64,000 nt of DNA from a bacterium. Lineage in GTDB: Bacteria > Pseudomonadota > Alphaproteobacteria > Caulobacterales > Caulobacteraceae. Below the pieces are notes generated by a model. The model ran no database searches, was not told the DNA's origin, and saw only the letters and a list, made by a program, of their open reading frames with translations. This document shows, one piece after another, positions 8,537-49,517 of this stretch. Made by a program: the position numbers and the translations under genes. Positions within the stretch are counted from its first letter, which is position 1. Each line of letters starts with the position of its first letter. The stretch covers positions 1 through 64,000 of the forward strand of contig JAVBXP010000021.1 in assembly GCA_030824495.1 (NCBI GenBank), written 5' to 3'.

Positions 8537-10041
8537 GAAACGTGGGCCGGCTCTGGATGTTCGATCACCGGCAGCCGGACGGTCACGGTGGTTCCCTCGC
8601 CCAGGCGGCTTTCGATTTCCATCTCGCCGCCATGCAGCTCGGCGAACGATCGTACGAGAGACAACCCTAGCCCTGTGCCGGTCGCGCGCTGCGCCGGGCC
8701 GCCAGCCTGTTCGTAGGGGCGTCCCAGCCGCTGCATGTCCTCGGCGCTGATACCAACGCCGGTGTCGGCCACGACCAATTCCAGCACCGGGCCGTCTGCA
8801 TGGATGGTGACGGTGACGGCGCCGCCACGCGGCGTGAACTTCAAGGCGTTGGAGACCAGGTTCAGGGCGATCTGCTTCATCGCGCGCCGGTCGGCCGTGA
8901 CGTCGAGCGGCTCGCGCGGCAGCAAGCCACGAAGCTGCACCCCCGCCCGGTCGGCCTGGCCGCGCATCAGTCGCAGAACCCCGGCGACGGCGTCGCGGGC
9001 GTCGAAGATGTCGCGCGACAGCTCGAACCGCTCGGCCTCGATCTTCGACATGTCCAGGACGTCGTTGATCAGGTCCAGCAGATGGCCGCCGGAATCGTGG
9101 ATCAGTTCGGCATACTCGGCGTAACGGTCCGACAACGAGCCGAACAGGCCCTGCCGCATGATGTCGCTGAAGCCCATGATGGCGTTCAGCGGCGTTCGCA
9201 ATTCGTGGCTCATATTGGCCAGGAACCGCGACTTGCCGGCGTTCTGCGCTTCGGCGTCGGCGCGTGCGCGTTCAAGCTCGGCCTCGCGATCCCGGGCGGC
9301 CTGACCGTCGCGAAGCGTTCCCATGATGCGGCCGCCGGCGACACGTCGAAGACTGAGCATCAGCCAGCCGTCCAGCTCACGCGTCGGCGCGAACCCGACC
9401 TCGGCGGCTCCATCGGCGACGGCGGCGGCGATAGCGGCCTGCACCTGCGCCTGATCGCCCGACGCCACGAAGTCGGTCAACAGCCGTCCCTGCGCCAGTC
9501 CGGCCACGCCGGCCGGTTCAGGCCCCCAGGCGCCGACGAGCTTACCGGCAGCGGTCATCGCGACGAGCAGATGCGGTTGATCGTTCAGGGCCTGACGTAG
9601 CCGCGCCTCGGCCTGACGATGAAGATTGGCGTCAGCGCCTGCTCCGCGCTGGAGGATCACCAGCCCAGAGGCCAGCCCCACCACGGTCGTGGTCAGGGCG
9701 ACCAAGCCCAGCACATTGGCGAGGGCCGGGCTTAAAATCGGAACGTCCAAGGTCAGGCCGGCCAGCGCCGCGACGCCGACCGACGCCAGCGAGACCGCCG
9801 CACCGAGCGCCAATCGCGCGCCATGGCCAATCACCGCCGCCGCCGCCAAGGGCAGCAGGCACAATACCGCGAGCGGACCGGCCACGCCGCCGGTGAAAAT
9901 CGCCGCAAAGGCGCCGGCCACGCCAAGACCGATGATGACCAGGATCGAGCCTGCGGCCGACGACCTGGTCTTTGACGTCGTCCGAGCGATGGGGCTCTCG
10001 ATCACGAAAAGTCTCGACGCCTCCTTCGCTGAGCGCTGCAC
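8533..10041 (-). CDS. Membrane sensor histidine kinase, PleC/DivJ type
   Basis: A 502-residue hybrid-free kinase. Residues about 30-130 contain roughly four membrane helices, 145-245 a PAS-like region, and the rest a HisKA plus HATPase core. The phosphoacceptor is His279 in SHELRTPLNAIMGFSDIM; N-box, DTGVGIS (G1) and GTGLGLS (G2) are intact. The HisKA sequence, with SDRYAEYAELIHDSGGHLLDLINDVLDMSKIEAERFEL, closely recalls the Caulobacter cell-fate kinases PleC and DivJ, but the sensor part is short, so I do not assign a name. The GTG start at 10041 is uncertain; a GTG at 10005 follows AAGGAGG. No receiver domain or cognate regulator is adjacent. Confidence 0.88.
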   Translation of the reverse strand: MQRSAKEASRLFVIESPIARTTSKTRSSAAGSILVIIGLGVAGAFAAIFTGGVAGPLAVLCLLPLAAAAVIGHGARLALGAAVSLASVGVAALAGLTLDVPILSPALANVLGLVALTTTVVGLASGLVILQRGAGADANLHRQAEARLRQALNDQPHLLVAMTAAGKLVGAWGPEPAGVAGLAQGRLLTDFVASGDQAQVQAAIAAAVADGAAEVGFAPTRELDGWLMLSLRRVAGGRIMGTLRDGQAARDREAELERARADAEAQNAGKSRFLANMSHELRTPLNAIMGFSDIMRQGLFGSLSDRYAEYAELIHDSGGHLLDLINDVLDMSKIEAERFELSRDIFDARDAVAGVLRLMRGQADRAGVQLRGLLPREPLDVTADRRAMKQIALNLVSNALKFTPRGGAVTVTIHADGPVLELVVADTGVGISAEDMQRLGRPYEQAGGPAQRATGTGLGLSLVRSFAELHGGEMEIESRLGEGTTVTVRLPVIEHPEPAHVS

Positions 10042-23788: not shown

Positions 23789-24997
23789 CTAGCGCCTCGC
23801 CCCCGCCTCAGCGGCCTTCAGCACCCTCAGGAAGTTACCACCCCAGATCTGGTCGATCTGCACCTCGCTATAGCCGCGCGCCACCAGCTCGCGCGTGATG
23901 TTCGGCGCCTGGCTCTCATTCCTGAAACCTTCAATTCCCGCGCCATGATTGAAATCGGTCCCGATTCCCACGTGCTCCACGCCGATCCGCTTGGCGATGT
24001 AGTCGATGTGATCGACATAGGTTTTGACGTCGGCCTGGGGCGATAGCGCCCTGTAGGCGGCGAAGAAGGCGTCCCGTCTTGGCTGGGGCAAGTCGTCGCC
24101 GCCCTGATAGCCGCTTCCCGTTGGAGATAGGCCGTACGCGGCCCGCAGCGCCGCCAGCTTGGCCGAATAGTCCGGGGCCTGCGGCAAGAGGTAGCTGTTG
24201 AATGGGGTCACCTGCACCACGCCGCCGTTGGCCTTGATCGCATCAAGCTCGGCGTCGGACAGATTGCGGGTGTGGTCGGCGAGGGCGCGGGCTGCGGAGT
24301 GAGTCGCTACGACGGGCGCGCGGGACAGCTCCAGGGTCTGGAACACCCCCTTGGACGTCAGCTGCGAGACATCGATCAGGACGCCCAGGTCGTTGAGCCG
24401 GGCGACCGACGCCTTGCCCAGCGGCGAGAGGCCGCCATGCTCCTCGCCCGTTCCCACCTTCGGCCGGGACGAATCGGCGAAGGCGTTGTTTCCGGCATGG
24501 GTCAGGCCAGCGACGCGGACACCTTCCTTCTGCAGCCCGTCGAAGGCGGCGACGTCCTCACCCAGCGAATAGGCGTTCAAAAAGCCAAGGATGATCGCGA
24601 CCTTGCCCTGGCTCACGACCTTGCGGACCTCGTCCGCCGAAAGCGCGATGACGACGTCATTTGGGTTGTCGGCGGCGATCTGCCTTACAGCTGCGAGCTT
24701 GGCGGCGACTTCCGCCCGCGCCGCAGCGTAGGCCTCCGGCGTGCGCGGTCCGGTCGAGACGGCCAGGGCGTAGACCAGGGCGTCCACCCCGCCGGCGCGA
24801 AGCTTCGAAAGCTCGGCGTAGGACGCCCCATCGGCGTCGAACGAGCGGGGATTGGAACCTGGCGGCAGCACGTCGACATGGCTGTCGAGGACCAGCACTC
24901 GGCGATGGATGGCGTCGGCGGCGCTCTGGGCGGCCGCGGGGCCGGCGAGCAGTAAGGCGACGGCTGCGCCCGCCATCAGCAGGGATCGTGGGCTCAT
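23789..24997 (-). CDS. M19-family (renal dipeptidase-like) secreted protein with altered metal site
   Basis: A 402-residue protein with signal peptide MSPRSLLMAGAAVALLLAGPAAAQ; the ATG at 24997 has GGAGAT upstream. The fold is that of membrane dipeptidases: HxD as His40/Asp42, THAGNNAFADSS near 167, THSAARALADHTRNLSD with His233, and GTDFNHG. However, the bridging glutamate of the usual xIENGY/EGG motif is Leu140 (ILGFLNAYSLG), and the ligand histidine of DVSH is Gln (IDVSQLT, residue 212). A normal two-metal site therefore seems impossible. It may use one metal, or be a binding protein. Confidence 0.85.
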   Translation of the reverse strand: MSPRSLLMAGAAVALLLAGPAAAQSAADAIHRRVLVLDSHVDVLPPGSNPRSFDADGASYAELSKLRAGGVDALVYALAVSTGPRTPEAYAAARAEVAAKLAAVRQIAADNPNDVVIALSADEVRKVVSQGKVAIILGFLNAYSLGEDVAAFDGLQKEGVRVAGLTHAGNNAFADSSRPKVGTGEEHGGLSPLGKASVARLNDLGVLIDVSQLTSKGVFQTLELSRAPVVATHSAARALADHTRNLSDAELDAIKANGGVVQVTPFNSYLLPQAPDYSAKLAALRAAYGLSPTGSGYQGGDDLPQPRRDAFFAAYRALSPQADVKTYVDHIDYIAKRIGVEHVGIGTDFNHGAGIEGFRNESQAPNITRELVARGYSEVQIDQIWGGNFLRVLKAAEAGARR

Positions 24998-25038: not shown

Positions 25039-25065
25039 TTATTCCTAGTTTGAAGCTAGGAATAA
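25039..25065. promoter_or_regulatory. Perfect AT-rich inverted repeat upstream of the M19 gene
   Basis: Two 10-bp arms (TTATTCCTAG and its exact reverse complement) with a 7-base spacer, ending 42 bases from the dipeptidase-like start. It is AT-rich in a GC-rich region and has no T-tract, so an operator is more likely than a terminator. Confidence 0.55.
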
Positions 25066-25116: not shown

Positions 25117-25142
25117 GGCGGGCTCCCGCAGGAGAGCCCGCC
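25117..25142 (-). terminator. Hairpin after nodT
   Basis: A perfect 9-bp stem (GGCGGGCTC/GAGCCCGCC) ten bases past the nodT stop. There is no T-run, so it may stabilise the 3' end or work with Rho. Confidence 0.5.
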
Positions 25143-25151
25143 CTCTATGGT

Positions 25152-26549
25152 CTAGCTGTCGCCCCAACCGCCGCCCAGCGCCTTGAACAGGGCGATCTGG
25201 TTGGTGGTCACTTGGGCGTCAGACAGGGCGAGCTGGGCTTCCAGCTGCGCCAGGTTCTTTTCGGACACCAGCAGGACCAGCAAACTGTCCACGCCGGCCT
25301 CGTTTCGAAGGCGCGCAAGGCGAACAGCCTTGGCTCCCTCGTCCCGCGCGCGGCGCAGGGCCGTGCGACGGTCAAGTTCGCGCGCATACTGGGTCAGCGC
25401 GGTCTCGGTTTCCTGCAAGGCGGTGAGGTTGGCCTTCTCGAAGTTGGCCAACGCCCCCTCGGCGCCGGCGCCGGCCTGCTTGATGCGGGCGCGACTGGCG
25501 GCGATGTTGGGGAAGTTCCAGCTGATCAACGGCCCGACATTGAACCGGAAGTCGTCGCCGAGATCGCCGGTGTTGGCGGCCGCCGTCGAGATCGAGCCGC
25601 CGATGGTCACCGAGGGATAGAGCGAGGCCGTGGCCACGCCGATCCGGGCGGTGGCCGCCGCCAGTTCACGCTCGGCCTGACGCACGTCCGGGCGACGCGC
25701 CAGCATGGCCGCGCCATCGCCCACCGGCAGAGCGGCGGCGACTTGCGGCACGTTCTTGCACGCCAAAACCGCATTGGGCGCCTCGGCCGGCGGCTTGCCG
25801 ATCAACAACGCCAGACGAAACAAGGCCGACGAACGCTGCGCCGCCAAGGGCGGCAGCAGGGCGCGCGAGGTCTCAAGCTGGGTCGCGGCGCTGGAGGTGT
25901 CCAGGGCCGTGCCGCGGCCCGCCTCAAGCTGCCGGGCCGTGACGTCGTAGGTCTGCTGTTGCAGCGCCAGCGTCTGGTTCACCACCGCGATCTGGGCGTT
26001 GGCGGCGCAGATGTCGGCATAGGCCCGGGCGGTTTCGGCGGCGACCGAGACCCGCACCACGTCCAGCGCGGCCTGGGCCGCGGCGGTGTCGGCGCGGTTG
26101 GCCTCCAGGCTGCGGCGCACGCGGCCGAACAGGTCGACCTCGTAGGACATGTCGAAGCCGGCCGAATAGGCGTCGGCCTCGCCGAACTGCCCGCTCACCG
26201 GATTCTGGTCACGCACGCGCTGGCCGGACGCCGAGACGTTCGTCGAGGGCAACAGGCCCGCGCGCGTCTCGCTGAGCACGGCGCGAACGCGGGACAGGTT
26301 CGCCGCGGCGATGGCCACGTCCTTGTTGGCGACCAACGCCTCCTGAACCAGACCGTCCAAGGTCGGGTCCTGGAACAGTCGCCACCAGTCGCCCGGAGGG
26401 GCGTCGGCGGTGGCGACCGTGGGTTCGGCGCTTACGAAGGTCCCCTGCGCCGAGGCGATGGGCCCCGGCGCCTGGTAGGTCGGCCCGACCGCGCAGGCGC
26501 TAAGCGCCGTGGCGGACAGGAGGGCGGTGATAAGCGAACGGCGGATCAC
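25152..26549 (-). CDS. nodT: NodT-family outer-membrane efflux lipoprotein
   Basis: A 465-residue TolC-like factor that forms the outer-membrane channel of an RND pump. It has a lipoprotein signal with lipobox ending LSAC at Cys19. Two OEP-type coiled-coil repeats follow, with LVANKDVAIAAANLSRVRA and DVRQAERELAAATARIGVATASLYPSVTIGG as hallmarks. It overlaps the permease stop by four bases, so the pump and channel are translated together. Gene order acrA-acrB-nodT matches the Caulobacter AcrAB2-NodT system. Confidence 0.93.
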   Translation of the reverse strand: MIRRSLITALLSATALSACAVGPTYQAPGPIASAQGTFVSAEPTVATADAPPGDWWRLFQDPTLDGLVQEALVANKDVAIAAANLSRVRAVLSETRAGLLPSTNVSASGQRVRDQNPVSGQFGEADAYSAGFDMSYEVDLFGRVRRSLEANRADTAAAQAALDVVRVSVAAETARAYADICAANAQIAVVNQTLALQQQTYDVTARQLEAGRGTALDTSSAATQLETSRALLPPLAAQRSSALFRLALLIGKPPAEAPNAVLACKNVPQVAAALPVGDGAAMLARRPDVRQAERELAAATARIGVATASLYPSVTIGGSISTAAANTGDLGDDFRFNVGPLISWNFPNIAASRARIKQAGAGAEGALANFEKANLTALQETETALTQYARELDRRTALRRARDEGAKAVRLARLRNEAGVDSLLVLLVSEKNLAQLEAQLALSDAQVTTNQIALFKALGGGWGDS

Positions 26550-29500
26550 TTGGCGCCTCCTTCATACTCGATCGGGGTGTGGGGCGTGCCGCCACCGGTG
26601 GTCGGATAGTCATTCTCCTTGCGCTGAGCCTTCGGGAGCTTGGCCGCGAGGCCGCGGCAGAGCACGTAGAAGACCGGTGTGAAGATCAGGCCGAAGATGG
26701 TGACCCCGATCATCCCGAAGAACACCGCGGTGCCCAGGGCCTGCCGCATCTCGGCGCCTGGTCCGCTGGCGATGGCCAGAGGCAGCACGCCCAGAATGAA
26801 GGCGAACGACGTCATCAGGATTGGCCGCAGGCGGGTCTTGGCGGCGCGGACGGCCGCTTCGAAGCGGTCGACCCCGTGCTCTTCTTCCGACTGCTTGGCG
26901 AACTCCACGATCAGAATGGCGTTCTTGGCGGCCAAGGCGACCAGCACGATCAGACCGATCTGAGTCAGGATGTTGTTGTCCTGGCCCCGTAGATTGACGC
27001 CCAGAATGGCCGCCAGAATACACATCGGCACGATCAGGATGACCGCGAGCGGCAAGGTGAAGGCCTCGTACTGAGCCGCCAGCACCAGGAATACGAACAC
27101 GACGGCCAGGCCGAAGACCAGGACGCCGGCGTTGCCAGCGGCCTTTTCCTGGAAGGCGAGTTCGGTCCACTCGTAGCTGAAGCCCTGCGGAAGGTTCTTC
27201 GCCGCAAGTTCTTCCATGGTCGCCAGCGCGTCGCCCGACGCGACGCCGGGAGGCGCCCCGCCCTGGACTTCGGCGGCCGGGAACATGTTGTAGCGAACAA
27301 CACGGATCGGGCCGGTTTCGTCGTTGATGGTGGCGAGCGAGCCCAAGGGCACCATGCCGCCGCTGGCGGAACGGACCTTGATCGCGGCGATGTCGGCCGG
27401 ATCGTCCCGTGCATCGGCCTCGGCCTGGGCGGTCACGCGGAAGGTGCGGCCGAGCAGGTTGAAGTCGTTCACATAGGTCGAGCCGAGATAGGTGCCCAGC
27501 GCGTCATAGATGTCGCCCGGCTGGACGCCCATCAGCAGCGCCTTGTCGCGGTCGATCTCGGCGCTCAAACGCGGCGAACCCGTATTGAACTGTGAGAACA
27601 CCCCGACGGTCGTCTGCGGAGACTGAGCCGCAGCGCCGACCAGTCCGTTGGCGGCCTGTTCCAGCGCTTGATAGCCAGCGCCCGAACGGTCCTGAACCAT
27701 CATCTTGAAGCCGCCGGCGTTGCCCATGCCTTCGACAGGGGGAGGCGCCAGGAAGAAGATGTTGGCTTCCTCGATGCCGCCCAACCGGCCCATGACCTGA
27801 CCGGCCATGGCGTCGGCCGACATGTCCTTGCCGCGCTTGGACCAATCGTCGAGCTTCACGAAGAACACGCCGCCGTTCGAGCTGGACGAGAAGCTCGCCC
27901 CGTCGAGACCGGCGAAGGCCGCAACGTTCTGAACGCCTGGAGTGTCCATGATGATGGCGCTGGCCTTGCGGACCACCGCGTCGGTGCGCTCCAGCGAAGC
28001 GCCCGGCGGAAGCTGCACGACTCCGATCAGGAAGCCTTGGTCCTGTTGCGGGATGAACCCGGCCGGAGTGGCCGTCAGGCGCCATCCGGTCATCAGGATC
28101 AGGCCGGCATAGATGACCAGCATGATCATCCCGGCCCGCACGAGACGCGCGGTCAGGGCGCCGTACTTGTCGCTCAGCCAATCGAAACCGGCGTTGAACT
28201 TGTCGCCGGCATACTTGATCGGCTTCATCCAGCGAGGGCCGGAATTGGCGTCATGCTCGACATGCGGCTTGAGCAGGATCGCCGCCAGCGCCGGTGACAG
28301 AGTCAGCGACACCAAGAGCGAGATCACCGACGCCGCGGCGATGGTCACGGCGAACTGGCGGAAGAACATGCCGGGGATGCCGGGCATGAAGGCGGTCGGC
28401 ACGAACACGGCCAGCAGGACCAGGCCGATGGCGATCAGGGCGCCCGACACCTCGTCCATGGTTCGATAGGCCGCCTCTCGTGGCGTCATGCCTAACTTGA
28501 TATTTCGCTCCACGGCCTCGACGACGACGATGGCGTCATCGACGACGATGCCGACGGCGAGAACCAGGGCGAACAGCGACAGCGAGTTCAGCGAATAGCC
28601 GAGCGCGAGCTGGATCGCGAAGGTCCCGACCAGCGCGACGGGAATGGCGATGATCGGAATGATCGCCGCCCGCCACGTCTGCAGGAAGACCATGATGACG
28701 ATCATGACCAGGATCACCGCTTCGAAAAGGGTGCTCTGGACCGAGGCCACCGAGGCCTGCACGAACTCCGTCGGGTTGTAGGGGATCTGATAGGTGACGC
28801 CCTGGGGCATCGTCGGCTTCAGTTCCTCGACCGCCTTCAGAACCTCGGCGGCCGTCGCCAGGGCGTTCGAACCCGGCTGCTGGACGATCGCCAGACCAAT
28901 GCCGCGATCGCCGCTGAAGTAGCCGCGCATCCCGTAGTCCTGCGCGCCGAGTTCGACACGCGCGACGTCGCGAACGCGGGTCACACGGCCGTCGGCGTCG
29001 GTGCGGATAACGATATTCGAGAACTGTTCGGGATCGGCGAGGCGACCCTGAACCTGCACGGGCAGCTGATAGGCGGCGCCCGTGTCGGACGGAGCCTGGC
29101 CAAGCGCGCCACCGGCGGCCTGGACGTTCTGGGCGCGAAGCGCGGCGACGATTTCACCCGCGGTCAAGTTACGAGCCGCGGCCTTGCCGGGGTCGATCCA
29201 GACCCGCATCGAGTAGAAGCCGCCGCCGAACACCTGGACGCCGCCGACGCCGTCGATCCGCAACATGCGGTCGCGCAGGGTCGAGTTGGCGTAGTTGCCG
29301 ATGTAGTCGAGGTCGGCGTTCGGATCTTTTGAGGTCAGCGCCACGATCAGCAAGAAGCCGGAAAGCTGCTTGTTTACCGTCACGCCGGTCTGGCGCACCT
29401 GCTCAGGCAGGCGCGGCTCAGCCAGGGCGACCCGGTTCTGAACCAGAACCTGAGCCGCATCGAGGTCAGTGCCAGGTTTGAAGGTGACCGAGATCTGCGC

Positions 29501-29767
29501 CATGCCGTCGGCGGTGGACGACGAGGTCATGTAGAGCATGTCCTCGACGCCGTTGATCTCCTGCTCAATCGGTGCGGCGACCGTCTCGGCGAGCGTCTCG
29601 GCGGACGCCCCAGGATACATGGCGGTGACGGCGATCGTCGGCGGCGCGATGTCCGGATACTGCGATAGCGGCAGCAGCGGCAGCGCGAACGCCCCGATCA
29701 GGGTGATGAACACCGCGATGACGCCCGCGAAGATCGGGCGATCGATAAAGAAGTGCGAAAAGCGCAT
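26546..29767 (-). CDS. acrB: RND efflux pump inner-membrane subunit
   Basis: A 1073-residue RND (HAE1) transporter, full length. It starts MRFSHFFIDRPIFAGVIAVFITLIGAFALPLLPLSQYP and has twelve membrane helices and two large periplasmic loops. Visible signatures include the proton-relay segment GIVVDDAIVVVEAVERN in helix 4, TPAGFIPQQDQG and LGVNLRGQDNNILTQIGLIVLVALAAKNAILIVEFAK. It takes drugs or bile-like compounds from the periplasm using the proton gradient. It lies 24 bases after acrA in one operon. The C-terminal 60 residues form a cytoplasmic tail. Confidence 0.97.
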   Translation of the reverse strand: MRFSHFFIDRPIFAGVIAVFITLIGAFALPLLPLSQYPDIAPPTIAVTAMYPGASAETLAETVAAPIEQEINGVEDMLYMTSSSTADGMAQISVTFKPGTDLDAAQVLVQNRVALAEPRLPEQVRQTGVTVNKQLSGFLLIVALTSKDPNADLDYIGNYANSTLRDRMLRIDGVGGVQVFGGGFYSMRVWIDPGKAAARNLTAGEIVAALRAQNVQAAGGALGQAPSDTGAAYQLPVQVQGRLADPEQFSNIVIRTDADGRVTRVRDVARVELGAQDYGMRGYFSGDRGIGLAIVQQPGSNALATAAEVLKAVEELKPTMPQGVTYQIPYNPTEFVQASVASVQSTLFEAVILVMIVIMVFLQTWRAAIIPIIAIPVALVGTFAIQLALGYSLNSLSLFALVLAVGIVVDDAIVVVEAVERNIKLGMTPREAAYRTMDEVSGALIAIGLVLLAVFVPTAFMPGIPGMFFRQFAVTIAAASVISLLVSLTLSPALAAILLKPHVEHDANSGPRWMKPIKYAGDKFNAGFDWLSDKYGALTARLVRAGMIMLVIYAGLILMTGWRLTATPAGFIPQQDQGFLIGVVQLPPGASLERTDAVVRKASAIIMDTPGVQNVAAFAGLDGASFSSSSNGGVFFVKLDDWSKRGKDMSADAMAGQVMGRLGGIEEANIFFLAPPPVEGMGNAGGFKMMVQDRSGAGYQALEQAANGLVGAAAQSPQTTVGVFSQFNTGSPRLSAEIDRDKALLMGVQPGDIYDALGTYLGSTYVNDFNLLGRTFRVTAQAEADARDDPADIAAIKVRSASGGMVPLGSLATINDETGPIRVVRYNMFPAAEVQGGAPPGVASGDALATMEELAAKNLPQGFSYEWTELAFQEKAAGNAGVLVFGLAVVFVFLVLAAQYEAFTLPLAVILIVPMCILAAILGVNLRGQDNNILTQIGLIVLVALAAKNAILIVEFAKQSEEEHGVDRFEAAVRAAKTRLRPILMTSFAFILGVLPLAIASGPGAEMRQALGTAVFFGMIGVTIFGLIFTPVFYVLCRGLAAKLPKAQRKENDYPTTGGGTPHTPIEYEGGAK

Positions 29768-29791: not shown

Positions 29792-30937
29792 CTACTGAGC
29801 GCCGGCGGGGGTGGCGCTCGAGGCCACGGGAATGGTGACAGTCGTCGTGCGTTCGGCCGCGGCCTTGGGCGTGATCTTGACCTGCGTCGCCTTCACCTTC
29901 TGACCCGGCATCATCATACGGGCGGTGCCGTTGACGATGATCTTGTCATTAGCGCTGACGCCGGTGCGGATGACCCGCAGCCCCTGGCTGAGCGGACCCA
30001 GCGTCACGGGCTTCAGAGTGACCGTGCCGTCGGGAGAGACGACATTGACCGCCTTGCGGGCGCCATCGGGGACAATCGCGTCTTCCGGCACCAGCAACGC
30101 CTCATAGGCCTGACCGCCCTCAACCTTCGCCTTGCCGAACATCCCGGGCTTCAGGAAGCCGTTGGGGTTGGCCACGACAGCGCGCATGCGCACCGCGCCG
30201 GAGGCGTTGTCGAGCGTATTGTCGGTGAAGTCGATCTGGCCGGTCCAGCGATAGTCGCTCTCGTCCTGAAGACGGATCTGGACCTTGCCGCCCTTTCCGG
30301 CGTCGCGTTGGTTCTTCAGGAACTGGGCTTCCGAAGCGTCGAACACGAAGTGGATCGGGGTGGTCGAGACAATGGTGGTCAGGACGTCGGCGCCGGAGCC
30401 GCCGCCCGAGATCACGTTGCCCGGATCGACGCGGCGGTCGGAGACGACGCCGGAAACAGGCGCGGTCACGCGGGTGAACTCAAGATCAAGCTCGCGAGCG
30501 CGAACGCTCGCCTGGGCGACTTCGTTGGCCGCACGCTTGCTGTCGTATTCTTCGCGGCTGATGGCCTGGACCTTCAGCAGGCTTTCAGCCCGGGCCAGAT
30601 CGCTGGAGGCGAGCTGGGCCTGGGCGCGGGCGGCGGAGAGCTGGGCCTGCGCCGGGCGCGGATCCAACTGGAACAGCAGCTGTCCCTTCTGGACGAACTG
30701 GCCTTCGCGGAAGTTCGCGCTTTGCAGGTAGCCGCCGGCCCGAGCGCGCACGTCGACGCGCTCCGGAGCCTCGAAGCGACCGGTGAAATCATCCCAGTCG
30801 ACGACAGACTGCTTAAGGGGCGTAGCCACAGAAACCTGCGGCGGAGGCATCTGCGGGGGGCCTTCGGTCTTGCTGCAAGCGGCCAAAACCATTGCAGCAG
30901 CAGCCGTTGCGACGAACGGCGCGAGAAACTTGCGCAT
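29792..30937 (-). CDS. acrA: RND efflux periplasmic adaptor lipoprotein
   Basis: A 381-residue membrane-fusion protein that bridges the RND pump and NodT. The lipobox LAAC gives a lipidated Cys21. Lipoyl halves (VDVRARAGGYLQSANFREGQFVQKGQLLFQLDPRP and LEFTRVTAPVSGVVSDRRVDPGNVISGG) flank an alpha-hairpin, followed by the beta-barrel and membrane-proximal domains. It is the first gene of the operon, directly behind a strong promoter at 30989-31017 with operator-like repeats. Confidence 0.96.
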   Translation of the reverse strand: MRKFLAPFVATAAAAMVLAACSKTEGPPQMPPPQVSVATPLKQSVVDWDDFTGRFEAPERVDVRARAGGYLQSANFREGQFVQKGQLLFQLDPRPAQAQLSAARAQAQLASSDLARAESLLKVQAISREEYDSKRAANEVAQASVRARELDLEFTRVTAPVSGVVSDRRVDPGNVISGGGSGADVLTTIVSTTPIHFVFDASEAQFLKNQRDAGKGGKVQIRLQDESDYRWTGQIDFTDNTLDNASGAVRMRAVVANPNGFLKPGMFGKAKVEGGQAYEALLVPEDAIVPDGARKAVNVVSPDGTVTLKPVTLGPLSQGLRVIRTGVSANDKIIVNGTARMMMPGQKVKATQVKITPKAAAERTTTVTIPVASSATPAGAQ

Positions 30938-32960: not shown

Positions 32961-34733
32961 CTAGAAGACGCGAACCCCAACAGCCTCGGCGTCAGGGCGG
33001 CGCGTATCGGCCGCGCCATAGAAGACGCCGTCAGGCCCGATCATGATCGATTGGGTGCTGCCGATGATCTGCGAGCGCTGGACGACGTGGCCCTTGGCCC
33101 GCAGCCCGGCCACCAGATCCTCCGGGATCGATTCCTCAAGCTGGATCGGCGCGTCAGGCCCGCCCTGTGAGATGCGCGGGCGCTGCACGGCTTCGGAGAT
33201 GTTCAGACCGTGGTCGATCACATTGACCAGCACCTGGACCATGGTCGAGATGATGGTGCCGCCGCCGGGCGTGCCGGTGGCCAGCCACGGCTTGTCGTCC
33301 TTGAACACCAGGATCGGCGAGATCGTGGATTGGGCGCGCTTGCCGGGCTCAGGCTTGTTCGCAGGGCTTTGGCTGTAACCGGCCCAATCGAAGTTGGCCA
33401 AGGAGTTGTTCAGCAGGAAGCCGGTCCCCGGCGCCACCACATGGGCCCCGTACGACGAGCTGAGCGTATAGGTGTTGGTGACCACGTTGCCGAACTTGTC
33501 GGCCACAGAATAGTGAGTGGTGTCCGGGCTCTCATAGGGACGCGGATCGAGCGGCGGCAGGCTGGCGGCGTCCAACGACTTGTCCATCGAGATCAGCTTG
33601 GCGCGTTCCTTGGCGAAAGCCTTGCTGGCTAGGCCGATCGCCGGCGTCTTCCACTGCGGGCCGCCGCCGGAATAGCGGCGATCGACCGCCCCGATCTTCA
33701 GCGCCTCGGAGATGACGTGCATGCTCTGCACATTGCCCCAGCCATAGGATTGCATCGGGAACTGCTCGAGGATGTTCATCACCTCGGCGACGCTGGAGGC
33801 CGCCGAGGTCGGCGACATGTAGGCGATCTTCAGGCCGCGATAGTCAGACCAGATTGGCTCCATGACATTGGCCCGATAGCCGGCCAGGTCTTCGAGCGTC
33901 ATCACGCCGCCTCCCGCCTGGACGCCGGCCACCAGCCGCTCGGCCACCAGCCCGCGATAGAAGCCGTCCGCGCCGCGCGCCTGGATCTGCTTCAGGGTCC
34001 AGACAAGATCCTTGTTCCGGAAGGTCTCGCCCGGCCCGTAGGTCGAGCCGTCAGGCTTGTAGAACACCTTCAGCGCGCCAGGGTCCTTGCCCAGCGCCTG
34101 GCGACGCTCGGCCAGGGTTACAGCCTCGTCGTCGGTCATGACCATGCCCTTGGAGGCCAGGTCGATGGTCGGCTGAATCAGTTGCTTCCACGGCAGCTTG
34201 CCAAAGCGCTTGTGAGCCTCATAGAGCCCGGCCACCGTGCCAGGGATGGTGACGCCCTTGAAGGACATCACCTTGGCTTCCGACAGCTTGCCGTCTTCAC
34301 CCAGCAGCAGATCCGGGGTCACCGCGTTCGGCGCCTGGCCGTAGTACTCGATGGCGACCGTCTTCTTGGTGGCCGCGTCATAGACCAGCATGTAGCCGCC
34401 GCCGCCGACATTGCCGGCGCGCGGCAAGGTCATGGTCTCGGCGATGCCGACCGCCACGGCGGCGTCCACCGCATTGCCGCCCTTGCGCAGGATCTCGGCG
34501 CCGATGCGCGCGGCGATCTTGCTCTGGGCCACGACCATGCCGTCGCGGCCGATCGCCGGGTGATGGATGGAGTTGTAGCCGACCAGATCGCCGCCGGTGG
34601 CGACGCCGCGTGCGGGGGCGACCGCCTCCTGCGCAAAGGCGCCGGACGCCAGCGGCGCTTGCAGTCCGACCACCAGGGCCGAGACGAGGGCCAGACGGCC
34701 GATGGAATGGGATGTGCGGCGTACGGGGTTCAT
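32961..34733 (-). CDS. ggt: Gamma-glutamyltransferase
   Basis: A 590-residue periplasmic N-terminal nucleophile hydrolase that removes or transfers the gamma-glutamyl group of glutathione and related peptides. A signal peptide ends GAFAQ. The autocatalytic nucleophile is Thr405 in SPDTTHYSVADKFGNVV, which also marks the cleavage site between large and small subunits. The small subunit shows NTYTLSSSYGAHVVAPGTGFLLNN and TPGGGTIISTMVQVLVNVID. It lies downstream of a TonB-dependent receptor on the same strand with a 130-base gap. Confidence 0.96.
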   Translation of the reverse strand: MNPVRRTSHSIGRLALVSALVVGLQAPLASGAFAQEAVAPARGVATGGDLVGYNSIHHPAIGRDGMVVAQSKIAARIGAEILRKGGNAVDAAVAVGIAETMTLPRAGNVGGGGYMLVYDAATKKTVAIEYYGQAPNAVTPDLLLGEDGKLSEAKVMSFKGVTIPGTVAGLYEAHKRFGKLPWKQLIQPTIDLASKGMVMTDDEAVTLAERRQALGKDPGALKVFYKPDGSTYGPGETFRNKDLVWTLKQIQARGADGFYRGLVAERLVAGVQAGGGVMTLEDLAGYRANVMEPIWSDYRGLKIAYMSPTSAASSVAEVMNILEQFPMQSYGWGNVQSMHVISEALKIGAVDRRYSGGGPQWKTPAIGLASKAFAKERAKLISMDKSLDAASLPPLDPRPYESPDTTHYSVADKFGNVVTNTYTLSSSYGAHVVAPGTGFLLNNSLANFDWAGYSQSPANKPEPGKRAQSTISPILVFKDDKPWLATGTPGGGTIISTMVQVLVNVIDHGLNISEAVQRPRISQGGPDAPIQLEESIPEDLVAGLRAKGHVVQRSQIIGSTQSIMIGPDGVFYGAADTRRPDAEAVGVRVF

Positions 34734-34827
34734 GCCGTGTCCTCCTGGCGATCAAGTCGAACGGCGAGGATGGGGGCAGAGGCGGCCTGGGAGCGACGCG
34801 CCGACGTCGACGCTCCCACCGTGAACC

Positions 34828-34850
34828 GGCCGGCCCCGCTGGGACCGGCC
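34828..34850 (-). terminator. Hairpin between TonB receptor and ggt
   Basis: Six paired bases (GGCCGG/CCGGCC), one mismatch and three more pairs around a 3-base loop, shortly after the receptor stop. No T-run follows, so it is a weak candidate. Confidence 0.3.
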
Positions 34851-34863
34851 GGGATGCAGGTCC

Positions 34864-37800
34864 TTAGAAGGACTTGCGGACGCTGACGTACCAGTAGCGG
34901 CTGTAGGGCTGGTAGAGCTCGCCCAGATAGCCGTCCGAGGACAACGGCGGCTTCTCGTCGGTCAGGTTGCGGACCCCGACGCGCAGGCGGGTGTTGGCCG
35001 CCAGGCCTTCGGTGAACTCGTACTGGCCGTACATGTTCGCGGTCAGTTGCGAGTCGATGATCCAGGCGTCGCCTTCGGCGTCGAGCAGCTGGGTGTCTTC
35101 GACGTCACCGATGTACTGGGTGAAGGCGCCGACGGTCCATTGCTCGTAGTTCCAGGTCGCCGAGGCGGACCACTTCCATTCCGGACGGCCGTTCTGACGG
35201 ATCAGGTCGCCGCCGCCGCCGATGAAGATCGACGGGTCAAGCTGGCCGGCCGCTTGGGCAGTGACCAGTTCGGCCACGCCCGGCGAAGGCGAGCGGTAGA
35301 ACTTCATCAGGTGGGCGGCGTTGAAATTGACGCTGAAGTCGCCGTACTGCGTGCCGCGAAGGCTCCACATCACGCCGATGTCCAGGCCCCGCGCCTCTTG
35401 CGGCAACAGGTTCTGGTACTGGTCGGCGATGTAGAGGATCTGGCCAACCGGGGCCAGGCCCGTGCCTTGGAAGGCGGCGATGTCGTCAGCGGTCGGCGCG
35501 GCGCGAACCACGTCGGCGTAGGACGAACCGTTCAGGCGGGCCAGATAGTCGGCGGTGATGGCGTTGCCGCCGCCGAACAGGCCGACAATGCCTTCTTGCT
35601 TCACGCGCCAGTAGTCGACGGTGAAGGTGAAGCGACCGAATTCTTCCGGCACGAAGTGCGGTTGATAGACAACGCCCAGGCCCCAGGTTTCCGACTCTTC
35701 CGGCTTCAGCTCGGAGTTGCCCGAACGGCGCTCGAGGGTCGAGGGCTGGGCGCAGGCCTGCAGGCTGGCGATACGGCCAGCGCGGCGGTCAGCCTCGCAG
35801 CGGTACCAGTCGCGGCGGTTGTTGGACCGCGTGACCAGGGTGGCGTTCACCTGCTCCAGGTTCGGAGCCTTGAAGCCCTGGGCCCAGGAACCGCGGAAGC
35901 GCAGGCCATCATAGATGTCCCAGGCCACGGCGACCTTCGGCTTGGCGACGTCGCCGACGTCGCTGAAGTTCTCATAGCGACCAGCGAGCTGGGCTTCGAG
36001 GTTGTAGATGAACGGGATTTCCATATCCGGCGAGATGACCGGAATGGCGAGCTCGGCGTAGAGCGAGGTGACGTTGCGCGCGCCCTTGGTGTCCGGCGAA
36101 GCGCTGGAACCGATCAGGTCGTTCTCATAGGTGACGCCGGTGACCGAGTTGGTGAACTTGATCGTGCCGTCGAGGCGGGCGTCGCGGTCGTCCTTCTGGG
36201 TTTCGCGGCGGTACTCGACGCCGGCGGCGAAGCCGATGTCACCGGCCGGAACCGAGAACAGATCAACCTTGGAGACCTTGAAGTCGGCCAGGGCCAGCGA
36301 GCTGGTGCTCTTGCGCACGGTCTTGACGCGGATGGCGTCGATCGCCGCCTGCGAGCTCGGGGTTCCGTCGCCAATGCTCGGATTGCCGAGCGTGCCGCCG
36401 TTGAAGGGATTGTAGGCGTCAGGCGTCGACAGGGCGAGTTGGCGCTGGAGCAGGGTAGCGCTGATGCCGTCCGAGGTGTCCTCGACCTCGGCCTGCGAAT
36501 AGAGCAGCGCGCTTTCCCACTTGAAACCGAACTTCTCGCCCTTCAGGCCGCCGAGGAAGCGCCATTGGGTGTTCTCGACGTCAACGTGGTTTGGACCCAC
36601 ATCGACGAAGTTGTAGGCGCTCATGATCACCGGGGCGCCGGCGGCCGAGATGCTGAGGCCGGGCAGGCGGTTCGGGTTGGCTTGGCCGTTCAGAACCGCC
36701 GCGCCGAAGGGATTGTAATAGTTCGTCGTCGCGATCGCGATCGGCAGGCCGCTGAGGTTGGTCGTCGAGGTCTGCACCGCGTGGGTGGTAGCCGAGTAGT
36801 AGCCGATCTCGCCGAACGCCCGCAGGTCCTCGGTCAGGTCGTACTTGCCGGTCAGGAACAGGTTGACCCGTTCCAGCTCAGGCATGACCGACGGGTTGAA
36901 GGTGCCCGCCGTGTCGAAACGCAGGTTGCGGTCGGCGCCCGTCGCGCCGGTCGCCGCCGCGCCGGTCGCAAGGCAGATGCCGTTCGGCAGGATGCTGGCG
37001 CACGCGCCGTTGGTGGTCGGTTGGATGTGGAAGGCGCCGGCCGCAGTGGTCAGCGCCACGCCGTTCTGACGGATGATCCCGAACGACGACGGCGTGTTCA
37101 GGCTGCCCCACGGCGTCGAGGTCACGCGGTCGTCCAGCGTCACGTTGCTGGCGTAGTCGGTGCCGGCGAACAGCGAGGTCCGGTCGACCGACGAGGTGAA
37201 GTCCTGATCCCAGGCCTTCAGCGCCGAACGGTTGGTGTAGTTGGCGAACAGGGTGACGTTGCCGCGACCCTCGTTGAAGTTCCGACCAGCTTGCAGCGAG
37301 AACTCGCCTTCACGCAGGTTGGTGCCTTCGGCCGAGCCGTACTGGGCTTCGACGGTCAGGCCGTCATAGTCGTCCATCAGCACGGTGTTGATCACGCCGG
37401 CCACGGCGTCCGAGCCGTACAGCGCCGCGGCGCCGTCGCGCAGGACTTCCAGGCGCTTGATGCCGCTGACCGGAATGGCGTTGGTGTTGTAGGTCAGAAC
37501 CGGAACCAGGTTCTCGTCGGCGCGGCTGGTCGGGTGGGCCACGACGCGGCGGCCGTTCAGCAGGACCAGTGTGTTGCCGACGCCGAGGTTGCGCAGGTTC
37601 ACCGAACCGACGTCGCCACGGGCGCTGTTGCTGGAGTTCGGCAGGTAGCTCGAATTGAAGCTCACATCGCCCATCTGCGGGATGGAGCGGAACAGGTCGT
37701 CGCCCGAGGTGGCGGCGACGTTGTCGAGCTGGGCTTGGTCAACCACGGTGACGGGGAGAGCCGCCGTGACCTTCGAGCCTTCGATCTGCGAACCAACAAC

Positions 37801-37917
37801 GACGATCTCTTCGACCATGTCGTCGGTGGCCTGGGCCGACGCGGCGCCAGCCCAGGAAGCGGCGCAAAGCGCCGAGGTCGCCAGCATGGCGTGACGCCAA
37901 GACATACGAGAACGCAT
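34864..37917 (-). CDS. TonB-dependent receptor
   Basis: A 1017-residue outer-membrane receptor. Signal peptide ending GAASAQ, a TonB-box region DDMVEEIVVVGSQIEGSKV, a plug domain (DLFRSIPQMGDVSFNSS, VNLRNLGVGNTLVLLNGRRVV, VLRDGAAALYGSDAVAGVINTVL) and a 22-strand barrel ending in ...YWYVSVRKSF with the terminal Phe needed for barrel assembly. The ATG at 37917 is chosen over TTG at 37920. Plug motifs are those of peptide- and siderophore-type Oar-like receptors common in Caulobacter. It sits between M14 and ggt, suggesting a peptide substrate (inference). Confidence 0.95.
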   Translation of the reverse strand: MRSRMSWRHAMLATSALCAASWAGAASAQATDDMVEEIVVVGSQIEGSKVTAALPVTVVDQAQLDNVAATSGDDLFRSIPQMGDVSFNSSYLPNSSNSARGDVGSVNLRNLGVGNTLVLLNGRRVVAHPTSRADENLVPVLTYNTNAIPVSGIKRLEVLRDGAAALYGSDAVAGVINTVLMDDYDGLTVEAQYGSAEGTNLREGEFSLQAGRNFNEGRGNVTLFANYTNRSALKAWDQDFTSSVDRTSLFAGTDYASNVTLDDRVTSTPWGSLNTPSSFGIIRQNGVALTTAAGAFHIQPTTNGACASILPNGICLATGAAATGATGADRNLRFDTAGTFNPSVMPELERVNLFLTGKYDLTEDLRAFGEIGYYSATTHAVQTSTTNLSGLPIAIATTNYYNPFGAAVLNGQANPNRLPGLSISAAGAPVIMSAYNFVDVGPNHVDVENTQWRFLGGLKGEKFGFKWESALLYSQAEVEDTSDGISATLLQRQLALSTPDAYNPFNGGTLGNPSIGDGTPSSQAAIDAIRVKTVRKSTSSLALADFKVSKVDLFSVPAGDIGFAAGVEYRRETQKDDRDARLDGTIKFTNSVTGVTYENDLIGSSASPDTKGARNVTSLYAELAIPVISPDMEIPFIYNLEAQLAGRYENFSDVGDVAKPKVAVAWDIYDGLRFRGSWAQGFKAPNLEQVNATLVTRSNNRRDWYRCEADRRAGRIASLQACAQPSTLERRSGNSELKPEESETWGLGVVYQPHFVPEEFGRFTFTVDYWRVKQEGIVGLFGGGNAITADYLARLNGSSYADVVRAAPTADDIAAFQGTGLAPVGQILYIADQYQNLLPQEARGLDIGVMWSLRGTQYGDFSVNFNAAHLMKFYRSPSPGVAELVTAQAAGQLDPSIFIGGGGDLIRQNGRPEWKWSASATWNYEQWTVGAFTQYIGDVEDTQLLDAEGDAWIIDSQLTANMYGQYEFTEGLAANTRLRVGVRNLTDEKPPLSSDGYLGELYQPYSRYWYVSVRKSF

Positions 37918-38061
37918 CAAGTCTTATCCCCTCAACTCATAAGTGCAAGCATCGGGGCGCACAGCTACACTTGCGCGGCCCCAAAGTTGACGCGACAAAC
38001 ACATGATCCTTGCCGTCGCGTCACTCATTCCCTTGTCATCTAATGGGATATAACGGCGTTT

Positions 38062-38077
38062 GTGACATTACAGTCAC
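38062..38077. promoter_or_regulatory. Inverted repeat at the M14 stop, upstream of the TonB receptor
   Basis: GTGAC and GTCAC flank six bases. It spans the M14 stop and lies about 145 bases before the receptor start. The spacing is not that of a CRP site. Confidence 0.3.
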
Positions 38078-40815
38078 TGTGTTGCCGCTATTGCCGGCCC
38101 GTACTGAAGACCGTTGAACAAGAACTTGAACGCAGCGTGTGATTGAGCCCGCTGTGCAACTTCTGGTCCCATCAGGAACAGTTTGCCCTTGCCAACATTC
38201 AGGTCGAGCACGGCGCCCGCCCCGACCAACCTGTCCTGCCCCACAGCCCAACCGCTCCGCAGAACGTCGCCTTGCGGATACCAGGCGGCGCGAGCGCCGG
38301 CCCCAGCCGCGAAGGCCGGACTGCGATCGAAGAACACATCCATGGTCGAGGGCGCGCCAAAGGCGAGCGGCTGGGTGTTGTCCACCGAGACCTGCAGCAA
38401 CGAACCGGGAATGTAGAAGTCGTTGCGCGCCAGCGGCTTGCCCGCCGCATCAACCAGCGCGTCTCCGACCGGCGCCCCGACCAGTTGAGCCAGGCGGGTG
38501 GACGGGCCGATGGCTACGACCGAGCCGCCGCCCTGCAGGAAGGCCGCGATCTGCGGCGCGCTCTTTTCCGGGGTGATCTCGCCCAGCCAACCGCGGAACT
38601 CGGCCGGAATATCCTCGGCCTTAGGCTGGCGGCCGCCGTAGCCCTCTCCGGCCAGCGACGGCAGCACCCCGTTGGTGAAGACCAGGACGTCGAAGTCTTT
38701 AGCGAGATCGCCAGCGTCCAGTCGCTGCGGGTACACGACTTGATAGTCGAACTCGAACTGCTCCATCAGCCATCGGGTCCAGCCCGACGTCATGACCCCG
38801 CCGTACTTGTCGACGAGGCCGACGCGGACAGGCTTCAGCTTTAGAGTTTCGCCGACCGGAGCCTTGGCGACCGCATAGGCGTCGACGCCCAGCTCGGCCG
38901 TGGCCTTCTCCAGAATCGCGCGGTTGGCGGGCGTCGCCGGGATCCAGACGGCGCCGGGCGCGAACGCCTTGCCGCCGGCCTTGGTCGCTGTCTTCACCCA
39001 ATAGACGCCCTCCCCCGCCTTCAGCAGGCGATTGGAGAGGATGAAGCTGTCATTGACCTCGTGGCTGACGAGGTAGCCAGCCTTGCCCGAGCCGATGATC
39101 TTGCCAGGCGCGGGCGCCATCACATCGGCGACCGGCGTGAAGGGACCATCGAACCCGTCGAGGACGCGGTCGAACTTCACGCCCATCTGCATGGCCAGCG
39201 TGTAGCCGGTGGAGTCGTAGGGCGCGATCGGCGGTCCGCCCGGATAGGCGAAGTCGTGCGGGTGATCCTGCGGCTCGAACATATCCAGCACGTGCGGACG
39301 GTAGGCCTGGTCGGCGCGCACCACATAGGAGCCGGCCGGATAGGATTTTCCGGCGACCTTGAACGCCTTGTCGGCGCGCTCGACATCGACCCCGGTCTTG
39401 ATCAGCGCGTTCAGGAACTTGACCGCCGTCGGTAGGTCGGCCTGGTCGGCGGGGATGATGTAACCGCGCGCATCGCGCAGGGCGGGGTCGCGCAGGATCT
39501 GGTTGTAGAGCGTCGGATCGACGCTGGCGTTGCGGCCGCTGCCGACCTCGGGACGCCCCTTGGCCGCCGCCTCCAGCGCCTCGATACGCTTCGGTGTCAC
39601 GGTCCAGCTATCCTGACGCCCGCGCTCGATGGAGTTGTCGCCCATCCGCCAGATGTTCATCAGCAGCCGCTCGCGGTTGCGCGAGGCGTAGTCGAGCACG
39701 GCGCGATTGATCGACATCGAGTAGTCGATCGACTGGCGGAACTTCCATTCCTGTGGCGCGATCGGCGCCGGCAGGTCGTTGCGGGCGATCTGGTTCTTGG
39801 GGATCAGCGGGATCTGCATCGGCGTCGGATGGCCGATGATCTCCGTCAGCAGGCCGACGGTGTTGTGGAAATAGGTGATGGAGCGCTCCATCCCGTTGTT
39901 CCAGGTCGAGTAGGTCGCGCCACTGCGCATGGTCGAGCCAGGCTTGCCCTCGCTGATCAGCCGGCTGTGCATGGCCGAGCCGACCTCGCTCAAGGTCGAC
40001 ATCACCAGCGGGTCGTAGTTGTAGTTGAAGGGGTCGCGGAACGGCGGCATGAACACCACGGTCCCGGCCGGGCCGGTCTGGTGGTGATTGTAGACGATTT
40101 GCGGATACCACTCTCGGAAGAAGATCCGGTTGACGTTCGTGGTCTCCTTCATCGCCGACATGTAGTAGTCGCGATTGTTATCGTGGCCGATATACTTCTG
40201 ATACAGGCGCGGCAGGCTGTTGAACTCGCGCTTCGCCGGATCGGCGTTACGCATGTACCAGTTGGAGACCAGTTCCTGGCCGTCCGGGTTCACCTGGCCG
40301 AACAAGATGATGACGTCGTCCAGGATGCGGCGGGTCTCGGCGTCATCCTTGGTCAGCATGTCATGCAGGGCCGCGATCAAAGCCTGGGGCGGGACGACCT
40401 CGGTGGCGTGAAGCCCGCCGTCAATCCAGATCACCGCCTTGCCTTCAGCGGCCAGCGCCTTGGCTTCCTCTTCGCTGACACCCTCGGCCTTGGCCAGCCT
40501 GCGCGCGATCTCCCGATAGCGATCCAGTTTGGCCAGATTGGCCGGCGAGGAGACGATCGCCATGTATTCGCGGCGGCCCTCCTCGGTCGGACCGATGTCG
40601 ACCAGCTTCATGCGGTCGGACTGTCCGGCGAGGGTTTTGAAATAGGCTTCGAGCTGGGTGTAGTTGGCGAGGAAGTAGTCGTCACCGATATCGTGACCAA
40701 ACGCCTCTTTGGGAGAGGTGATCCCACTGGGCGCAGCCGCCCATACGGGCGCGCCGAGCGCCACAGTGATGGCCACCACGGCGGCGGCGTTTTTTAGATA
40801 TCTGGAAAAGTGCAT
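38074..40815 (-). CDS. Secreted M14-family zinc carboxypeptidase-like protein
   Basis: A 913-residue secreted protein, signal peptide ending APVWAA. The N-terminal 380 residues hold an M14 peptidase domain: zinc ligands His136 and Glu139 in GLHATEVVPP, a further His near 244-245 in IVYNHHQTG, and a glutamate in LLTEIIGHP near 328. The remaining 500 residues include LKAGEGVYWVKTATKAGG and a late flavodoxin- or glutamine-amidotransferase-like region (LVFTNGVLPSLAG, FLQGGGSVVAIGPS), as in the large bacterial M14 group. It probably removes C-terminal residues from peptides in the periplasm. Confidence 0.92.
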   Translation of the reverse strand: MHFSRYLKNAAAVVAITVALGAPVWAAAPSGITSPKEAFGHDIGDDYFLANYTQLEAYFKTLAGQSDRMKLVDIGPTEEGRREYMAIVSSPANLAKLDRYREIARRLAKAEGVSEEEAKALAAEGKAVIWIDGGLHATEVVPPQALIAALHDMLTKDDAETRRILDDVIILFGQVNPDGQELVSNWYMRNADPAKREFNSLPRLYQKYIGHDNNRDYYMSAMKETTNVNRIFFREWYPQIVYNHHQTGPAGTVVFMPPFRDPFNYNYDPLVMSTLSEVGSAMHSRLISEGKPGSTMRSGATYSTWNNGMERSITYFHNTVGLLTEIIGHPTPMQIPLIPKNQIARNDLPAPIAPQEWKFRQSIDYSMSINRAVLDYASRNRERLLMNIWRMGDNSIERGRQDSWTVTPKRIEALEAAAKGRPEVGSGRNASVDPTLYNQILRDPALRDARGYIIPADQADLPTAVKFLNALIKTGVDVERADKAFKVAGKSYPAGSYVVRADQAYRPHVLDMFEPQDHPHDFAYPGGPPIAPYDSTGYTLAMQMGVKFDRVLDGFDGPFTPVADVMAPAPGKIIGSGKAGYLVSHEVNDSFILSNRLLKAGEGVYWVKTATKAGGKAFAPGAVWIPATPANRAILEKATAELGVDAYAVAKAPVGETLKLKPVRVGLVDKYGGVMTSGWTRWLMEQFEFDYQVVYPQRLDAGDLAKDFDVLVFTNGVLPSLAGEGYGGRQPKAEDIPAEFRGWLGEITPEKSAPQIAAFLQGGGSVVAIGPSTRLAQLVGAPVGDALVDAAGKPLARNDFYIPGSLLQVSVDNTQPLAFGAPSTMDVFFDRSPAFAAGAGARAAWYPQGDVLRSGWAVGQDRLVGAGAVLDLNVGKGKLFLMGPEVAQRAQSHAAFKFLFNGLQYGPAIAATQ

Positions 40816-46324: not shown

Positions 46325-46349
46325 TTCAACTTTTACGGTGCTGGAAGGA

Positions 46350-49430: not shown

Positions 49431-49517
49431 TGTTTGTATCCTCCAGCGGTCCGCCAGAAGGCAGCCGCTCCCCACAAAGGAAAGGTCCCAGAAACGAGCT
49501 GTTTCCGGTTACGTCCG

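Follow-up and report, generated by a model that had tools for sequence, protein, structure and literature searches.

A putatively secreted M19-fold protein that has lost two residues of the two-metal site and may act with a single metal ion

Within the window, by which we mean the whole 64,000-nucleotide stretch of Caulobacteraceae DNA analysed here (contig JAVBXP010000021.1, positions 1 to 64,000), the minus strand of positions 23789–24997 carries a gene for a putatively secreted protein of the M19 fold, with its ATG at 24997 and 402 codons plus a stop. Re-reading of the frame and its codons upheld the coordinates, residue numbers and codon assignments of the initial annotation. The protein belongs to the M19 family (PF01244) both by domain score and by its barrel fold: the Peptidase_M19 profile is matched over model positions 2–318 of 319 (E 3e-90, 303.1 bits against a cut-off of 26), and the AlphaFold2 model (mean pLDDT 93.1) finds its top fold match in PvdM of Pseudomonas aeruginosa (3b40; Foldseek E 2.6e-36; VIA Z 51.7, rmsd 4.3 over 374 residues), followed by the canonical M19 proteins CC2746 (2rag, Z 48.6), Sco3058 (3id7, Z 47.1) and human renal dipeptidase (1itq), whose likeness to the window protein rests on this fold comparison (Z 45.5). 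PvdM is also the nearest solved structure by sequence (277 bits), and no NCBIfam profile assigns the protein to a family at E 0.001. Residues 1–23 (24929–24997, minus strand), a hydrophobic stretch ending in AAA/QS that we read by eye, probably form a Sec signal peptide, in keeping with the secretion proposed earlier; mean pLDDT is 55 over residues 1–10 and 64 over residues 11–20. With dN/dS of 0.14–0.26 against four Phenylobacterium relatives (Nei–Gojobori), we judge the gene to be under purifying selection.

The gene begins some 150 bp beyond an efflux operon that encodes an outer-membrane efflux protein (OEP, 25152–26549), an RND transporter (26546–29767) and a membrane fusion protein (29792–30937). 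The order membrane fusion protein, RND, OEP, M19 is kept in three other loci (L004, L005 and L006), while in a fourth, L010, OEP was not called. The gap between OEP and the M19 gene holds a perfect 9-bp G+C-rich hairpin (25117–25142, minus strand) with no T-run after it, and a consensus scan of this gap found neither a promoter nor a terminator. We considered the gene as a member of the efflux operon and make no claim of co-transcription, since the hairpin and a conserved upstream block separate it from OEP. That block, conserved in five Phenylobacterium-type loci, contains the dyad TTCCTA-N9-TAGGAA (25042–25062), a candidate operator. The dyad has no other exact copy in the genome and, with two one-mismatch sites, amounts to three occurrences against four for a control pattern; as near-matches are thus no commoner than the control, and as patterns with a 6–8 base spacer gave no matches, we set aside the idea that the dyad marks a regulon. 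About 8 kb from the gene, positions 32961–40815 of the minus strand place a gamma-glutamyltranspeptidase, a TonB receptor and an M14 carboxypeptidase side by side, an arrangement that looks like a peptide-use cluster. A second TonB receptor lies at 46350–49475 on the minus strand (domain match 46479–48215), and the plus-strand frame overlapping it (46338–49394) has no Pfam match and is probably spurious.

Canonical M19 enzymes bind their alpha metal through the HxD motif, a bridging Glu and the final Asp; that Glu, with two His residues, also binds the beta metal. The window protein, to which we carry over residue roles from renal dipeptidase as an assumption, keeps the alpha ligands of the HxD motif and the Asp and lacks the bridging Glu and one of the two beta-site His residues. 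His40-Val41-Asp42 (24872–24880; all sites on the minus strand), with codons CAT and GAC for the two ligands, is the HxD motif and is invariant in relatives (35/35 and 7/7 rows, see below); His233 (CAC, 24299–24301), the second beta-site His, stands in ATHS, and Asp348 (GAT, 23954–23956) in GTD. The position of the bridging Glu is occupied by Leu140 (TTG, 24578–24580), and that of the DVSH His by Gln212 (CAG, 24362–24364). Leu140 pairs with Glu and Gln212 with His of both Sco3058 and CC2746, in alignments free of gaps near both motifs, so that neither position can be filled by another Glu or His. No shifted Glu or His able to fill either site appeared in the alignments to solved structures and relatives. 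Among aligned positions the single new candidate is His351 (DFNHG, 23945–23947), three residues past Asp348, which may be a replacement ligand or a catalytic residue. Other pocket residues are also kept: His167 (24497–24499), its codon confirmed together with that of His351, aligns with His152 of renal dipeptidase and is presumably the transition-state His, and Arg244 (24266–24268), placed in TRNL by the group alignments, is taken to be the equivalent of the Arg that binds the substrate carboxylate, a role we assume it fulfils with Tyr269. The two losses and the retained motifs described by the initial annotation are therefore borne out; it did not mention the invariant His351, nor that PvdM carries the same Leu and Gln.

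The rebuilt site is shared by a group of relatives. All 42 group sequences, the window's included, show HxD, Leu or Gln, Gln, His and Asp at the six ligand positions. Thirty-five of them, the window protein and 34 others, are the full-length rows of one alignment, A1, which includes some near-copies and in which H40, D42, H167, Q212, H233, R244, Y269, D348 and H351 are invariant (35/35); seven later members have the same motifs at 40, 42, 167, 212, 233, 348 and 351, one of them (L102) with an in-frame TAG. A1 excludes three loci that are partial or split (L020, L026 and L035); their visible motifs at 212, 233, 348 and 351 agree, with 40, 42 or 140 partly missing or misaligned, and in L026 the variant gene is spread over two overlapping frames (7839–9148), through a frameshift or an assembly error. 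In a 29-row group set, position 140 is Leu in 14 rows and Gln in 15 (Gln also in 7/7 of the later rows), and His351 is present in all 29. Only 68 of the 365 columns of this set are invariant, so the retention of every alpha-site residue exceeds background.

A scan of the genome collection gave 34 loci that range from the variant through to distant M19 relatives. Strict thresholds applied to sampled genomes, whose counts are not a full census, then gave the following picture. Of 149 Caulobacteraceae genomes, 13 have a match of at least 379 bits (the next, at 235 bits, being canonical). At 1e-80, 23 of 398 Pseudomonadota genomes match: that of the window, five with proteins of the PvdM type and 17 with canonical ones. 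At 1e-115, 16 of 385 alphaproteobacterial genomes match, including seven variant carriers, the window's genome among them. At 1e-105, seven of 145 genomes of the order of G484 match, of which one is variant, one of the PvdM type and five canonical. Named carriers belong to the Caulobacterales and Sphingomonadales, with one Steroidobacter MAG and two Planctomycetes. A canonical copy and a group copy coexist in at least five genomes (G000, G544, G615, G642 and G737), L001 being the canonical paralogue in the window's genome, which argues that the group protein is no simple stand-in for the dipeptidase.

Canonical relatives serve as the control. The full two-metal set is present in 41 of 42 canonical rows, a set that contains a few duplicate loci and from which PDB rows and six distant rows (L033, L003, L032, L034, L037 and L036) were excluded before counting, and in all 18 nearer canonical rows (HDEHHD). 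Position 140 in the 42 rows is Glu in 41 and Lys in one, position 212 is His in all 42, and position 351 is Gly in 40 with two gaps, as it is in 18/18 of the nearer rows; His351 thus occurs in 0/42 and 0/18. CC2746 shares with the window protein its fold, HxD, His167, His233 and Asp348, whereas both it and Sco3058 have Glu, His and Gly where the window protein has Leu140, Gln212 and His351. Among the excluded rows, L033 is canonical at all six ligand positions, L036 lacks the HxD His, and L003, L032, L034 and L037 have Gln at 140 with the His at 212 kept and HxD lost or altered, so that the Glu by itself has been lost in other M19 proteins too. No aligned row outside the window's group and PvdM has Gln212. 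What is peculiar to the group, as read from these alignments, is the combination of Leu or Gln at 140, Gln212 and His351 with HxD kept. L003 (G000:C25:1965-2903) is itself a third M19-like protein of the window genome; having lost HxD and carrying Gln at the bridging position with both beta-site His residues kept, it shows a pattern of loss roughly opposite to that of the window gene, and L032, L034 and L037 look like it.

PvdM has the M19 fold and the same Leu and Gln at the two lost ligands, the Gln in 5/5 PvdM rows, and like the window protein it keeps the equivalents of His233, Arg244, Tyr269 and Asp348. The two differ elsewhere in the pocket. In the five PvdM rows, which comprise 3b40 and four from one genus and so form a narrow set on a long branch (1.6–1.9), the HxD Asp is replaced by Thr (four rows) or Ser (one row) after Arg or His, Tyr stands at the His167 position in all five, and position 351 is Asp in four and Glu in one. 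The residues that the window group keeps, namely the HxD Asp, His167 and His351, are thus the ones dropped or changed in PvdM. The neighbourhoods differ as well: pvdM sits in pyoverdine gene clusters, as reviewed in PMC6206403, whereas the window gene is accompanied by efflux genes, a prolyl oligopeptidase and a GNAT protein. With the HxD Asp and His167 kept and the pyoverdine neighbourhood absent, the window protein is not PvdM proper.

In trees, nevertheless, a single branch separates the variant group and PvdM from the remaining rows, with support of 100/100 over 74 rows and 100/99 over 52 rows. PvdM appears nested inside the variant, with support of 100/95 and 90/92, respectively, but the alternative, in which a branch separates the variant from PvdM, is not rejected by an AU test on 23 rows (p 0.457). 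The simplest reading is that the Glu and His would have been lost once, in a change shared by the window group and PvdM; since canonical outgroups have HxD, loss of its Asp is most simply placed on the branch leading to PvdM. The extra losses of PvdM may reflect fast change, given five rows on a long branch.

We propose, as the best explanation though one that we hold at just under even probability, that the window gene encodes a secreted M19-derived protein whose beta site has been dismantled and which would act at the alpha site as a single-metal enzyme on a peptide-like substrate. Replacement of the bridging Glu by Leu or Gln and of one beta-site His by Gln would remove the second, beta metal site, and a lone alpha-site metal could still be bound by His40, Asp42 and Asp348, perhaps aided by His351, Gln212 or His233. 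A short peptide or peptide-like ligand could be held through Arg244 and Tyr269 and acted on in the periplasm by a single-metal mechanism, the likely substrates being small peptides or peptide-derived compounds that in many hosts might arrive via outer-membrane receptors. Enzymes of the amidohydrolase superfamily with the alpha metal only include the adenosine and cytosine deaminases. Retention of His167, Arg244 and Tyr269 suggests that the pocket still recognizes, and probably acts on, a peptide-like substrate, and these kept residues, together with the invariant His351, tilt us towards a single-metal enzyme over a pure binder. Purifying selection, the invariance of the alpha-site residues and of His351, the loss or change of the same residues in PvdM and the coexistence of both copies are all consistent with such an enzyme. 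Conversely, His351 is a ligand candidate by its place in the alignment; the conserved residues may serve folding or metal-free ligand binding; the Leu found at position 140 in 14 of 29 rows deprives the alpha metal of a protein ligand; the comparison with PvdM draws on five rows of one narrow, long-branched set; and the nearness of TonB receptors in some loci also fits a binder.

The strongest competitor, which we regard as a serious possibility though a little below the single-metal enzyme, is a metal-free binder resembling PvdM, whose pocket would hold or present a peptide or siderophore-like ligand to a periplasmic partner enzyme or transporter with no cleavage. The Leu and Gln common to the group and to its best sequence and fold match, and the firmly supported branch that unites the two, favour this account. 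Sugue et al. in 2022 (J Biol Chem 298:102201) reportedly found PvdM to be without metallopeptidase function while keeping the peptide-binding site, and are said to have placed it in a new subfamily of zinc-inactivated, TonB-linked proteins, often near FAD oxidoreductases, that they proposed to be peptide binders. The window group would have in common with that subfamily the loss of zinc ligands and the nearness of some members to TonB receptors; FAD oxidoreductases, said to be frequent neighbours there, are rare near window-group genes, a crude Rossmann motif scan having found seven frames in 35 loci; Pfam, run on two of them, identified a flavin amine oxidase (L096) and an FAD-NAD(P)-binding protein (L020). 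In 11 of 30 loci a TonB receptor is found at most 1.4 kb from the variant gene, where segments drawn at random from these loci give 0.119, and in 20 of 30 one is present anywhere in the examined stretch. Both figures are rough: the profile used to detect receptors derives from those of the loci themselves and of the window, and some of the loci cover little sequence. The count omits four repeats or close repeats (L005, L099, L100 and L101) and L026, none of which has a receptor, so that it becomes 11/35 overall. With 57 receptor domain matches in the window genome, receptors are common and the link is moderate. Moreover, in the loci with the window's gene order (the window, L004, L006 and L010), examination of about 7 to 9 kb to either side of the gene found no receptor. 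HxD, His167 and His351 are invariant in the group and lost or changed in PvdM, and a pure binder should have no need of the presumed transition-state His167.

What PvdM does bears on the binder too. According to reviews, the tyrosinase PvdP depends on PvdM for its action (PMC13119372, where PvdM is still labelled a dipeptidase, and PMC9569983), and PvdM is essential for pyoverdine formation (PMC6206403 and PMC10782663). PMC9569983, citing a thesis, further states that PvdP is believed unable to acquire its copper without PvdM. The last statement, and the several His and Asp residues left in the pocket, lend something to the idea that the window protein is a metal or copper carrier whose remaining ligands pass metal to a periplasmic partner; yet PvdM itself lacks several of these ligands and no copper enzyme was found among 20 window neighbours scanned with Pfam (three of them without a family), so we consider a carrier improbable. 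An ordinary two-metal dipeptidase with other side chains in place of the Glu and His is a slim prospect: the fold and the remaining active-site residues are intact, but position 140 is Leu or Gln and position 212 always Gln in the group, with no new Glu or His beside them and His351 as the sole new candidate. Decay or sequencing error, for which nothing speaks beyond the two losses themselves, was rejected as having next to no chance, on the intact frame, the low dN/dS, the same state in 42/42 group sequences and the recurrence of the substitutions in independent assemblies of two phyla, Pseudomonadota and Planctomycetota; together with the near-complete domain match, these results sustain the earlier view of a full-length gene that has not decayed.

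We therefore see neither a decayed gene nor, as the residues indicate, a standard two-zinc peptidase; the whole group appears to share a rebuilt pocket, whose activity we infer. The two options offered by the initial annotation, a mononuclear enzyme or a peptide-binding pseudoenzyme, both remain live, and what falls is the picture of an isolated oddity, given a group of 42 and PvdM. As two residues of the two-metal site are absent, the Pfam label of membrane dipeptidase cannot safely be applied to any member of the group. That M19 relatives lose zinc ligands has probably been published already; HxD-keeping M19 proteins with an invariant His351 were not found in the open-licence literature searched, whose partial coverage makes this weak evidence of absence. 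On the question of descent, we hold that the beta site was lost once and that PvdM became a helper of pyoverdine maturation, the window protein more likely keeping one alpha-site metal. We can also imagine, although we think it rather unlikely, that discarding the beta metal and recruiting His351 produced a mononuclear centre whose reaction or substrate was new, with PvdM descending from such an intermediate through loss of the remaining residues; the group would then document how a two-metal enzyme became first a one-metal enzyme and later a binding protein. In any case, the series from canonical enzyme through HxD-keeping variant to PvdM is a ready-made case for studying the conversion of a metallopeptidase to a one-metal enzyme or a binder.

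The variant's neighbours elsewhere, among them TonB receptors, oxygenases and ABC binding proteins, hint at partners and substrates. In L093–L095, all of one genus, a TonB receptor lies about 2.8 to 2.9 kb off, and in L093 it adjoins an ECF sigma factor and FecR. Further neighbours include a luciferase-like monooxygenase, TauD, an NlpA-type binding protein and a peroxiredoxin. The variant genes of L008, L009, L016, L020, L022 and L027 lie near members of one luciferase-like monooxygenase cluster (by Pfam on the L009 member), with TauD in L009, PhyH and an NlpA-type protein in L027 and an NMT1-type protein in L020 as companions; our guess is that such loci resemble sulfur-scavenging islands. 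Finally, a second M19 gene stands within a few kb of the variant in L009 (4076–5560), L013 (5404–6726) and L014 (3253–4665), with the bridging Glu in L009 and L014 and Lys there in L013, and the two M19 proteins of each of these loci may share a pathway.
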